From Chitinophaga pinensis (GTDB lineage: Bacteria > Bacteroidota > Bacteroidia > UKL13-3), in contig CAMCQX010000034.1 of NCBI GenBank assembly GCA_945876985.1, positions 1 through 10,169 of the forward strand: a stretch of DNA of 10,169 nt, read 5' to 3'. This document shows positions 2,586-5,167 of this stretch, one piece after another; position 1 is the first letter of the stretch; every line of letters begins with the position of its first letter. Both the position numbers and the translations under genes were made by a program. The notes below the pieces were generated by a model. It did no database searches. It worked only from the letters and a program-made list of their open reading frames with translations, and was not told the origin of the DNA.

Positions 2586-3653
2586 CTATTCTTCTTCAAA
2601 TGGTTTAAAGTGCGCGTAATTTTTCCATTTATCGAGCACTTGTACAAAATCATCAGGCAATGGACTTTCAAAAAACATGCGTTCGCCAGTTACCGGATGT
2701 GTAAATCCTAATGAACGTGCGTGCAGCGCCTGACGTGGAAGTATTGCAAAGCAATTATCTACAAACTGCTTGTATTTGGTAAAAGTAGTTCCTTTTAAAA
2801 TTCTATCGCCACCATAAGTGGTATCGCCAAATAGTGGATGACCAATGCTTTTTGCATGAACCCTAATTTGGTGTGTTCTACCTGTTTCTAGCTTTAGTTC
2901 TATTAAACTTACATAGGTTAAACTTTGTAAAACTTTGTAATGCGTAACACTCCATTTTCCTTTTTCTTCTTCATTGTAAAGTTGAAAAATCTTTCTATCG
3001 TGGTTACTTCTTCCTATATAACCTGTAATTGTTCCTTCTTCTTCTGGCATTTCGCCCCAAGCTATGGCGTTATAACTACGTTCAATGCTGTGTTCGTAAA
3101 ACTGTTTTGCCAAATGTGTCATGGCATGTTCGCTTTTGGCCACTACCAATAGTCCGGTAGTGTTTTTGTCAATTCTATGAACCAATCCAGGACGAATATT
3201 GTTTTCTTGTGCAAAAGGTAAATCTTTAAAATGCCAAGCCAAAGCATTTACCAAAGTTCCCGTTGTGTTATTATAACCAGGATGAACCACCATGTTTGTA
3301 GGTTTATTTACTATTAGTAACGAATCATCTTCGTAAATAATATCAAGCGGAATATTTTCGGCAACTATTTCGGTATTAGCAGGAGGATTTGGTAAAACTA
3401 TGCTAATTACATCTAGCGGTTTTACTTTATAATTTGATTTTACAGGCTTTTCATTTACCAAAACACAACCTAAATCACAAGCTTGTTGTAATTTAGAACG
3501 TGTAGCATTGGCTATTCTAATCATTAAATACTTGTCAATACGCAGCAAGGCTTGGCCTTTTTCTACTTCTACTCTATGGTGTTCGTATAGTTCTTGGTCT
3601 TCGTTTTGGTCGTCTTCGTTTTGGTCGTTTTTTAAAAGCGGCTTTAAATACAT
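2586..3653 (-). CDS. rluD: RluA/RluD-family 23S rRNA pseudouridine synthase
   Basis: This 355-residue protein should convert specific uridines of 23S rRNA to pseudouridine. An S4 RNA-binding domain lies at about 34-80 (LLRIDKYLM...LVNEKPVKSNYKV). The RluA-type catalytic domain follows: HRIDKNTTG at 159-167 with catalytic D162, and GRTHQIRVH at 258-266. Length and domain order match RluD; RluC is the alternative but usually differs in the N-terminal part. The start at 3653 is supported by a TACTTTTG box four bases upstream and by the ELYEHHR stretch at 21-27, which I recognise as normal in this phylum. Residues 9-19 hold an acidic repeat (DQNED twice) made by a 15-bp tandem repeat. The gene lies 84 bases downstream of a detached prmA 3' fragment and two bases before the transglycosylase gene. 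Confidence 0.92.
   Translation of the reverse strand: MYLKPLLKNDQNEDDQNEDQELYEHHRVEVEKGQALLRIDKYLMIRIANATRSKLQQACDLGCVLVNEKPVKSNYKVKPLDVISIVLPNPPANTEIVAENIPLDIIYEDDSLLIVNKPTNMVVHPGYNNTTGTLVNALAWHFKDLPFAQENNIRPGLVHRIDKNTTGLLVVAKSEHAMTHLAKQFYEHSIERSYNAIAWGEMPEEEGTITGYIGRSNHDRKIFQLYNEEEKGKWSVTHYKVLQSLTYVSLIELKLETGRTHQIRVHAKSIGHPLFGDTTYGGDRILKGTTFTKYKQFVDNCFAILPRQALHARSLGFTHPVTGERMFFESPLPDDFVQVLDKWKNYAHFKPFEEE
3599..3628 (-). repeat. Two perfect 15-bp tandem units inside the 5' end of rluD
   Basis: The plus-strand unit CTTCGTTTTGGTCGT occurs at 3599-3613 and again at 3614-3628. A weaker third unit (GTTCTTGGTCT) lies just before it. On the coding strand each unit reads as Asp-Gln-Asn-Glu-Asp, so gain or loss of a unit keeps the rluD frame and only changes the length of a disordered acidic leader before the S4 domain. 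Confidence 0.9.
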
Positions 3654-3657
3654 GGTG

Positions 3658-3665
3658 CAAAAGTA
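3658..3665 (-). promoter_or_regulatory. Candidate Bacteroidota -7 promoter box for rluD
   Basis: On the minus strand TACTTTTG fits the TAnnTTTG consensus of the housekeeping sigma factor in this phylum. It lies four bases upstream of the rluD ATG, so the message would be leaderless or nearly so. No clear -33 TTTG is seen at the usual 19-21 base distance. Confidence 0.4.
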
Positions 3666-3683
3666 AGTTTTTTTGACGGTTAA

Positions 3684-3746
3684 TAGACCATAGACGATAG
3701 TTTATTATTAGACTTTCTATGGTCCATGGTCCATCAACTATTGTCT
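3684..3746. repeat. Seven-base-period repeat with nested inverted repeats
   Basis: From 3684 the plus strand breaks into seven-base units: TAGACCA, TAGACGA, three degenerate units, then ATGGTCC, ATGGTCC, ATCAACT, ATTGTCT. The first and last units are near reverse complements, which gives two competing stems. One is 3686-3694 with 3716-3724 (9 bp perfect, 21-base loop). The other is 3691-3701 with 3737-3747 (10 of 11). There is no T-run after the stems on the minus strand, so this is not a standard intrinsic terminator. The right-hand part overlaps the end of the detached prmA fragment and recurs at 4321-4348. Confidence 0.6.
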
Positions 3747-3831
3747 AACCAGCACCGAAGCGCACCATCCATTTGTTACTACTTTTTGTTGTAAATTTAA
3801 ACCAAAAGCTTGGCAGCAATTTAACAAATCA
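3715..3831. repeat. Direct repeat copy A (detached prmA 3' end plus flank)
   Basis: This 117-bp segment matches 4317-4433 at 110 positions, with a constant offset of 602 bases and no gaps. Outside the boundaries similarity stops at once. It holds the last 30 prmA codons, the stop and 23 bp beyond. It ends four bases before the toxin stop codon, so the toxin gene lies directly against it. Confidence 0.95.
3738..3831 (-). pseudogene. prmA: prmA 3'-terminal fragment (last 30 codons and stop)
   Basis: Read on the minus strand, this fragment gives the final 30 residues of PrmA (DLLNCCQAFGL... to ...VLVRQ and a TAG stop) with no frameshift or internal stop. Compared with the complete gene at 4340-5167 it has six coding differences; five are silent and one changes Ala to Ser. 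There is no start codon or upstream prmA sequence, so it is a relic that is not expected to be translated as PrmA. It is best read as the former end of the resident prmA, displaced when the toxin-antitoxin DNA arrived; the alternative is that it came with that DNA. Confidence 0.88.
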
Positions 3832-3835
3832 ATTT

Positions 3836-4117
3836 CTAAACTAACATTTTTGCTGCGTGATGAATTGTTAAAATAAATATTTGATTTTCTTTTATCAAAT
3901 GAACAATTCTGTAATTTCCCTCTATCAATTCCCTCACATTTTCATCATTATATTCAGGTACTTTTCTTCCTGAAAGAGGTTGAATTTTAAGCTGCTGAGT
4001 TCTTAATTTGATTCTTTTTACTTGAATACTAGCATACTTTTTAGAATCTTGAGCTATGTAATCAAAGATGTTTTTCAAATCATATAATGATTTATTTGAC
4101 CATCTTATTTTGACCAT
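3836..4117 (-). CDS. RelE/ParE-superfamily toxin of a type II toxin-antitoxin pair
   Basis: This 93-residue basic protein has the RelE/ParE toxin fold signature. It shows the DLKNIFDYIAQDS helix (13-25), a second long basic helix (about 26-45), PLSGRKVPE (47-55), VRELIEGNYRIVH (61-73) and the final ILTIHHAAK strand (82-90). The sequence is closer to ParE-like members than to classical ribosome-dependent RelE, so gyrase or mRNA are both possible targets; the sequence does not settle this. All landmarks are present, so the gene looks intact. Its ATG overlaps the 3' end of the antitoxin gene by 13 bases, which implies coupled translation. Its stop lies four bases from the detached prmA fragment. 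Confidence 0.9.
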   Translation of the reverse strand: MVKIRWSNKSLYDLKNIFDYIAQDSKKYASIQVKRIKLRTQQLKIQPLSGRKVPEYNDENVRELIEGNYRIVHLIKENQIFILTIHHAAKMLV

Positions 4118-4287
4118 TTTTCAATTAAATTATCAACTTCGGATTCATTTACCACATTATTTAAATCCACATCCTTTATTCCTTCTTCTATTTTTTGAAT
4201 AAAAATAATGCGCTCAATTAAATCTTCTGTTGTAGCATCAGTAGGCATTTTTTCGATGGTTTCAATTATTTGTTTTTTCAAAAGCAT
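4105..4287 (-). CDS. Small antitoxin partner of the RelE/ParE-like toxin
   Basis: This 60-residue acidic protein lies directly upstream of the toxin and overlaps it by 13 bases, the usual antitoxin-first order. It is predicted as two helices: an N-terminal amphipathic part (LLKKQIIETIEKMP, then EDLIERIIFIQKIEEGIKD) and a C-terminal arm (ESEVDNLIEKWSK) that probably wraps the toxin. No ribbon-helix-helix or helix-turn-helix motif is clear, so it may not bind DNA by itself. I recognise the general pattern of short antitoxins found beside ParE-like toxins, but not a named family. The ATG start at 4287 follows a TATATTTG box by four bases. Confidence 0.8.
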   Translation of the reverse strand: MLLKKQIIETIEKMPTDATTEDLIERIIFIQKIEEGIKDVDLNNVVNESEVDNLIEKWSK

Positions 4288-4291
4288 AGTT

Positions 4292-4299
4292 CAAATATA
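4292..4299 (-). promoter_or_regulatory. Candidate -7 promoter box for the antitoxin-toxin operon
   Basis: On the minus strand TATATTTG matches TAnnTTTG and ends four bases before the antitoxin ATG, the same spacing as at rluD. The region where a -33 element would be expected falls into the end of the prmA direct repeat (copy B); no TTTG is seen there. Confidence 0.4.
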
Positions 4300-4316
4300 A
4301 TAATTCTTGTTAAATA

Positions 4317-4433
4317 TTCTATGGTCCATGGTTCATCAACTATTGTCTAACCAACACCGCTGCACACCAACCATTTGTTACTACTTTTTGTTGTAAATTT
4401 AAACCAAAAGCTTGGCAACAATTTAACAAATCA
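4317..4433. repeat. Direct repeat copy B (true 3' end of prmA plus flank)
   Basis: This is the partner of 3715-3831, 110 of 117 identical. It contains the last 30 codons of the functional prmA, its stop at 4340-4342 and 23 bp downstream, ending 17 bases from the antitoxin -7 box. The seven-base units ATGGTCC and ATGGTTC at 4321-4334 are part of it, but the left arm of the inverted repeat next to copy A is missing here. Confidence 0.95.
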
Positions 4434-5167
4434 GGTAAATCGGTTTCGTAAAAACCACTGATTAACACTATGCCATTTGGTTTCACATTTTTGCTCAGTT
4501 GCTCAAAACTTTTTAGTAAAATATTCTTGTTAATATTGGCTAAAATAATGTCGTATTCCACATTTGGAACAATGCTTAAATCTCCTTTTTGATAATCTAT
4601 ATTGGTAATTTTATTATAACCTGCATTTTCACCCACGTTTTCAAAGGCCCAATCATCTATATCGTTTGCAAATATATTGGCAGCTCCTAATTGTGAAGCT
4701 AGTATGGATAAAACACCAGTTCCGCAGCCATAATCAAAAACAGTTTTATTTTTAAAATCCATATTCAACATCAGTTCCATAATGCTTTGGGTAGTTTCGT
4801 GGTGGCCTGTTCCAAACGAAGTTTTGGGTTGAATGATTATTTCATATTCATACTTTTCAGTAATGTTATGGAAAGGGGCTTTTATGATTAGTTTGTTACT
4901 CACTATTACCGGTTCAAAGCTGCATTCCCAAAGGGCATTCCAGTTTTGCTGCGCAATATTGCTTGCTATTACTTGGCTTTTATCGACCGAATATTTAAAC
5001 AATATTTCATTGAACAATGTTTCATCAAAAGCTTCTTCTTCTAAATACGCTTCAAATCCATGGTCGTTTTCTAAGAAACCTTCAAAGCCAATTTCAGCTA
5101 ATTCCGCTATTAATAATTCCGCTAATTCAGGTTTGCAATTTATTTGAAATACTTTGTAATTGCTCAT
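4340..5167 (-). CDS. prmA: Ribosomal protein L11 methyltransferase
   Basis: This 275-residue cytoplasmic enzyme should transfer methyl groups from S-adenosylmethionine to ribosomal protein L11. The N-terminal part (1-100) is the substrate-recognition domain. The C-terminal Rossmann methyltransferase domain has FGTGHHETT at 118-126, the SAM-binding DYGCGTGVLSI at 145-155, an acidic ANDID at 167-171 and LANINKNIL at 209-217, all standard for PrmA. Length is normal for the phylum. The ATG at 5167 has a TATATTTG box 22 bases upstream. The last 30 codons lie inside a direct repeat whose second copy is 602 bp downstream beside rluD; the gene itself is complete. It is divergent from secA. Confidence 0.95.
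   Translation of the reverse strand: MSNYKVFQINCKPELAELLIAELAEIGFEGFLENDHGFEAYLEEEAFDETLFNEILFKYSVDKSQVIASNIAQQNWNALWECSFEPVIVSNKLIIKAPFHNITEKYEYEIIIQPKTSFGTGHHETTQSIMELMLNMDFKNKTVFDYGCGTGVLSILASQLGAANIFANDIDDWAFENVGENAGYNKITNIDYQKGDLSIVPNVEYDIILANINKNILLKSFEQLSKNVKPNGIVLISGFYETDLPDLLNCCQAFGLNLQQKVVTNGWCAAVLVRQ

Follow-up and report, generated by a model that had tools for sequence, protein, structure and literature searches.

Genomic islands that enter at tRNA genes or at gene 3' ends leave the 3' end repeated on both sides and the gene intact, and integron toxin–antitoxin (TA) cassettes are small TA units with flanking repeats. Insertion with long target duplication was reportedly first described, in restriction–modification (RM) systems, by Nobusato in 2000 and Furuta in 2010. 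The accessible parts of three articles report it for RM systems (PMC3874152, PMC3031569, PMC1643837). In E. coli, TA pairs in the relA-mazG and folA-apaH intervals lie between core genes and are absent from many relatives, and such intergenic TA sites also accept other inserts, for example REP sequences, according to the accessible part of a 2020 review whose passage on this subject mentions no target duplication and leaves the route by which TA systems integrate unelucidated (PMC7167474). The locus described here bears on the entry route of TA pairs into chromosomes. In contrast to the E. coli passage, duplication of the target is explicit at this locus.

The locus lies in a window of 10,169 nucleotides (the whole stretch of DNA that was analyzed), which is contig C34 of genome G000, a genome estimated to be 65.87% complete. 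Our proposal is that a chromosomal ParE-family TA pair probably reached the prmA–rluD interval through insertion with long target duplication. The features of this region are as follows.

2586..3653, minus strand: rluD-type pseudouridine synthase gene, the downstream flank (PF00849 and PF01479)
3681..3736, minus strand: hairpin 3' of prmA (fold z –4.15 over 3660–3770)
3715..3831, minus strand: repeat copy R2, a second prmA 3' end with no gene attached (97% identity, PrmA residues 246–275)
3832..4316, minus strand: insert of 485 bp (missing in G005, shared by G001 and G008)
3836..4117, minus strand: ParE-family toxin gene, 93 aa (PF05016, 53.5 bits with the cut-off at 23, E = 3.6e-14)
4105..4287, minus strand: putative antitoxin gene, 60 aa (5' of the toxin gene and overlapping it)
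4317..4433, minus strand: repeat copy R1, comprising the prmA end, the stop codon, and 23 bp (from the repeat alignment)
4340..5167, minus strand: prmA, ribosomal protein L11 methyltransferase gene, intact (PF06325, E = 3.7e-46; NF001785, 312.6 bits, above the cut-off)

A first-pass annotation made from the sequence had noted a TA pair filling 485 bp between two 117-bp direct repeats. The alignment bore this out, with 3715–3831 and 4317–4433 identical at 110 of 117 positions (7 mismatches, no gaps). Ungapped extension lengthened the match to 130 nt at 91% identity, and self-BLAST gave an E value of ~2e-48. As had also been claimed, each repeat consists of the prmA 3' end with its stop codon (4340–4342 in the intact gene) and 23 bp of flank. 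The two TA genes are the only genes between the repeats. The insert begins 29 bp 5' of the antitoxin start and extends 4 bp beyond the toxin stop codon, so the coordinates agree with the four-base spacing between toxin stop and repeat pointed out earlier. R2 ends at 3715, two bases inside the hairpin loop, and R1 retains the first hairpin arm alone. Because the target (~117 bp, comprising the prmA end and half of the hairpin that follows it) is present on both sides of the insert, no gene was broken. No RNA family reached its gathering threshold in the window.

The toxin, originally labelled RelE/ParE-type, matched PF05016, and its match to the RelE/StbE model fell below the cut-off (26.0 against 27.9 bits). 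From the PF05016 match we assign the toxin to the ParE family. The toxin proteins of G008 and G001 are 98% and 96% identical to the window copy. The 60-aa ORF had no match in Pfam, NCBIfam, or PADLOC; its protein is identical in G001 and G008 and is conserved alongside the toxin. We presume from its position and size that it is the antitoxin. Elsewhere in their genomes, G003 and G018 carry homologous pairs, for which the main match is confined to window 4303–3842.

We compared the locus across a sample of ten genomes of the genus, G000 included. PrmA was searched for in 58 genomes, which included G000 and the nine others of the genus, and ~1.1 kb beyond prmA was read in each genus member. The TA pair was found between prmA ends in G000, G001, and G008 (filled sites). 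These were the only genomes among the 58 with a second prmA end, and every one had the same TA pair. By contrast, G005 was empty, with a single prmA end that runs straight into the counterpart of window 3661–3714. This is the arrangement that the first-pass annotation had expected of a relative lacking the pair, and it supports the earlier reading of DNA entry at the 3' end of prmA, with this end now doubled. The other six members (G002, G003, G004, G006, G007, and G009) had one prmA end and no TA pair within the ~1.1 kb read. Because the arrangement also occurs in two further MAGs of the genus, it is due neither to chance nor to faulty assembly; an assembly artefact is ruled out by a structure seen in three MAGs with diverged repeats. 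The first-pass annotation had proposed looking for the 117-bp repeat around other cargo, and none was found: G000 has no other full-length copy, and every second prmA end in the 58-genome PrmA search came with the same TA pair. In G002, G003, G007, and G009, unrelated sequence follows a common CCATAGAA word 3' of prmA, and in G003 and G009 the sequence immediately preceding CCATAGAA also differs. From these comparisons, the stretch 3' of prmA is apparently an insertion-prone site.

The right junction (toxin stop codon, then repeat) was identical in the three filled genomes. The left junction was the same in G000 and G008, with different sequence there in G001. Nucleotide identity between species was 94.7–96.0% for the TA pair and 93.0–94.3% for the flanks, and this similar divergence would fit one insertion older than the filled species. 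These data also bear on a Campbell-type single crossover, where a circle with the TA pair and a prmA end integrates by homologous recombination and the second end comes from the donor. Such an event yields precisely the observed structure, and it is in keeping with the differences of several bases between the two copies in one genome and with the patchy presence of the TA pair between species. However, it accounts for spread and not for the original joining of the TA pair with a prmA end, and both the shared junctions and the equal divergence of TA pair and flanks fit one old insertion. In addition, both G008 copies share two bases, one of them private within the set of ten aligned sequences; the other is also found in the distant G007. 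We therefore regard circle integration as rather unlikely, with spread by homologous exchange being possible. Within one genome, R1 and R2 had 8, 4, and 5 differences in 117 columns, and between filled genomes there were 6–12. Conversion or recombination between the copies is weakly indicated by these alignments.

Other loci were found by self-comparison of the neighborhoods of related TA pairs and by scanning 1.36 Mb of G001 regardless of cargo, and empty sites were sought in relatives. Three further TA loci in the genus had the same footprint, with unrelated targets of ~37–115 bp and single-copy empty sites in relatives. Locus 2 has a terminator-like hairpin on each side of a TA pair in G002 (37-bp repeats) and G005 (46 bp), and the toxin of this pair has 43% identity to the window toxin; the G005 toxin frame has an internal stop. 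The gene before this hairpin, which we take to be of outer-membrane type, was matched also in five more distant genus members. Locus 2 is empty, with one hairpin, in G001, G008, and G000, where the contig stops ~40 bp beyond. At locus 3, copies of the region separating two divergent genes (52–69 bp) flank a ParE-family pair in G001 and G005; in G008 the two flank matches overlap as a single 75-bp copy, and the site is empty. At locus 4, a PIN-domain toxin (PF13470) and an upstream 92-aa ORF lie between copies of a convergent gene end (112–115 bp) in G001. This site is empty in G000, G005, and G008, where the flank matches overlap to give one copy (110, 98, and 113 bp, respectively). The PIN pair occupies this position in G009 too, but no clear first copy is present there. 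Thus, what recurs is the type of footprint rather than the prmA-end repeat itself, and the target duplication is long, variable, and non-specific with gene ends preserved. In G001, 63-bp repeats likewise enclose a HigB pair, but the site in relatives is complex and yielded no clean empty site.

The first-pass annotation had likened the prmA locus to islands at tRNA genes. Site-specific integration at the prmA 3' end by a recombinase supplied in trans, with the incoming end rebuilding prmA, would explain why the repeat is a gene 3' end, why the gene is intact, and why a relative has an empty site. Against this, the other TA pairs, two of which also have PF05016 toxins, duplicated unrelated targets, and the four targets share no core. 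Their longest common words are 7–9 nt, and of 150 random pairs between 15 and 107 did as well. The length of the duplication ranges from ~37 to 117 bp. No recombinase or integrase was detected among the 8 window proteins scanned, which for these proteins upholds what had been noted before. Targets without a shared core, together with the lack of a recombinase in the scanned proteins, make island-type integration unlikely. We rejected it as the best explanation because there is no common attachment core, and we consider it highly improbable. The locus also differs from integron cassettes in that its repeats are pieces of a local housekeeping gene. At some loci outside the genus (for example, L164), the repeats may resemble cassette recombination sites.

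Insertion with long target duplication remains the reading that we prefer. In common with the RM cases, as described in the accessible parts of those papers, the insert is unlinked to a mobile element, the duplications are variable and ~100 bp long, the cargo is addictive, and the event is seen by comparing related genomes. Copies of the target flank the insert at the four loci (117, 37–46, 52–69, and 112–115 bp), single-copy empty sites are present, and no mobile element was found among the scanned window proteins. Unlike the RM cases, the cargo here is a type II TA pair and not an RM system, the hosts are Bacteroidota MAGs, and there are four loci in one genus. The literature searched covered the field in part, with subscription papers mostly outside it, and contained no description of target duplication for TA pairs. 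This kind of footprint is known from RM systems, and its occurrence with TA pairs appears to be new. Having four TA loci in one genus makes filled and empty sites comparable, and these loci have a common, non-disruptive footprint and no element-specific site.

In the mechanism we propose, the insertion event itself would have produced the target duplication, probably when ends were joined without site specificity, or when the template was switched, at a fragile site (a hairpin, for example). Strong hairpins are present in three of the four empty sites, including the prmA site of G005, and absent from locus 3. Random segments folded as well as the empty site in 0 of 200 cases for prmA, 2 of 200 for locus 2, 13 of 200 for the PIN locus, and 143 of 200 for locus 3. 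Breakage or template switching would be in keeping with a hairpin at the junction, but hairpins are often present at gene ends anyway. Neither a donor nor an intermediate was seen. After the insertion, homologous recombination could convert the two copies and could also excise the cargo precisely, so that a clean empty site remains. In a local tree (~1.2 kb), the empty G005 is placed beside the filled G000 (0.919), and precise excision in G005 is plausible. Identities at locus 2 group the species differently from this tree, so horizontal exchange of the flanks is possible.

Judging from the cargo, the toxin would penalize cells that lose the pair, and TA pairs would then outlast other cargo between such repeats. 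Addiction would most likely slow repeat-mediated loss in this way. If the repeats are kept by addiction, TA pairs mark insertions that without it would be self-deleting. Whether this applies widely is more doubtful, but we tentatively suggest that type II TA pairs may commonly enter chromosomes by long target duplication without a recombinase of their own, with addiction retaining inserts that otherwise would be lost by self-deletion, and that RM systems may use the same route.

We also compared how often toxin genes and other positions are flanked by direct repeats. The 1.36 Mb of G001 contained 46 close direct-repeat pairs, five of which enclose a toxin gene (two intact PF05016 genes, one PF05016 gene with a stop, one HigB gene, and one PIN gene) and one an Eco57I-type RM gene. 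By our reading, many of the other pairs appear to be intragenic repeats, gene duplicates, or dispersed repeats. Across the ten genomes, 17 of 55 PF05016 matches lie between direct repeats, but these 17 loci are non-independent, since prmA contributes three of them, loci 2 and 3 contribute two apiece, and the rest may include further homologs. Three of the 17 (G000:C23, G008:C81, and G002:C298) resemble dispersed repeats. Among the 49 PF05016 loci with 700 bp or more on each side, 15 were repeat-flanked compared with 46 of 1,500 random positions, all taken from G001 (p = 8e-11). HigB loci were repeat-flanked in 5 of 16 cases (3 of 12 with full flanks). In a set of 69 named-contig loci, 13 of 51 full-flank toxins were repeat-flanked compared with 8 of 168 pseudo-positions (p = 7e-5), and 9 of 44 compared with 8 of 149 after nine loci of the genus were removed (p = 0.0045). 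Several of the nine repeat-flanked ParE loci outside the genus have multi-copy repeats, and we therefore do not count them as proven cases. Together, these data show a far higher frequency of flanking direct repeats for TA pairs than for random positions.

As a control with other mobile genes, we used 30 of 153 GNAT matches. Three of the 30 were repeat-flanked (3 of 27 with full flanks), which leaves the contrast between TA pairs and other mobile genes unsettled: 3 of 12 for HigB against 3 of 27 for GNAT gave p = 0.26, and ParE plus HigB against GNAT gave p = 0.051. This result, along with several non-TA intervals in the G001 scan, leaves some room for the enrichment being merely apparent, with small mobile genes generally lying between repeats, or for a tandem duplication of the prmA end that came first and received the TA pair later. 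However, two prmA ends without a TA pair were found in none of the nine other genus genomes, and two copies without cargo were likewise seen in none of the relatives whose sites were read at the other three loci. We consider this explanation quite unlikely, and prefer an insertion that itself duplicated the target.

Several minor observations were made at these and other loci. At locus 3, the same repeats hold different cargo, with a TA pair in G001 and G005 and an IS200-like transposase ORF in G002 (PF01797; L275, G002:C229, reverse-complement 1400–2370), bounded by GC-rich inverted repeats. ParE pairs lie between 77-bp repeats at L178 (G004:C67) and L181 (G003:C48), and L178 has an additional 223-aa ORF. 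One repeat copy at L178 covers the 5' end of the neighboring gene, so the repeated target may also be a gene start. The Eco57I-type RM gene of G001 (L251:2486–5936, G001:C25) lies between 42-bp direct repeats ~3.4 kb apart, and a 99-aa GIY-YIG domain protein is encoded between 35-bp direct repeats in the same genome (L198:15265–15724, G001:C2). On the prmA–rluD side (window 3660–3736), short inserts in L004, L006, L007, and L009 vary by species, and in four species they follow CCATAGAA.

A DNA-uptake-like role for the CCATAGA word beside prmA was unsupported, with TCTATGGTC occurring 17 times against 7.7 expected in the 1.36 Mb of G001. For the longer ATAGACCATAGA, 9 occurrences compare with 0.3 expected in the same sequence, so that it is a low-copy dispersed word. 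The 10-mer TTGCAAAGCA, found in the window at 2744–2753, occurs 118 times on both strands of the 1.36 Mb of G001 against 2.6 expected from base composition, and could be an uptake-type or other dispersed signal.
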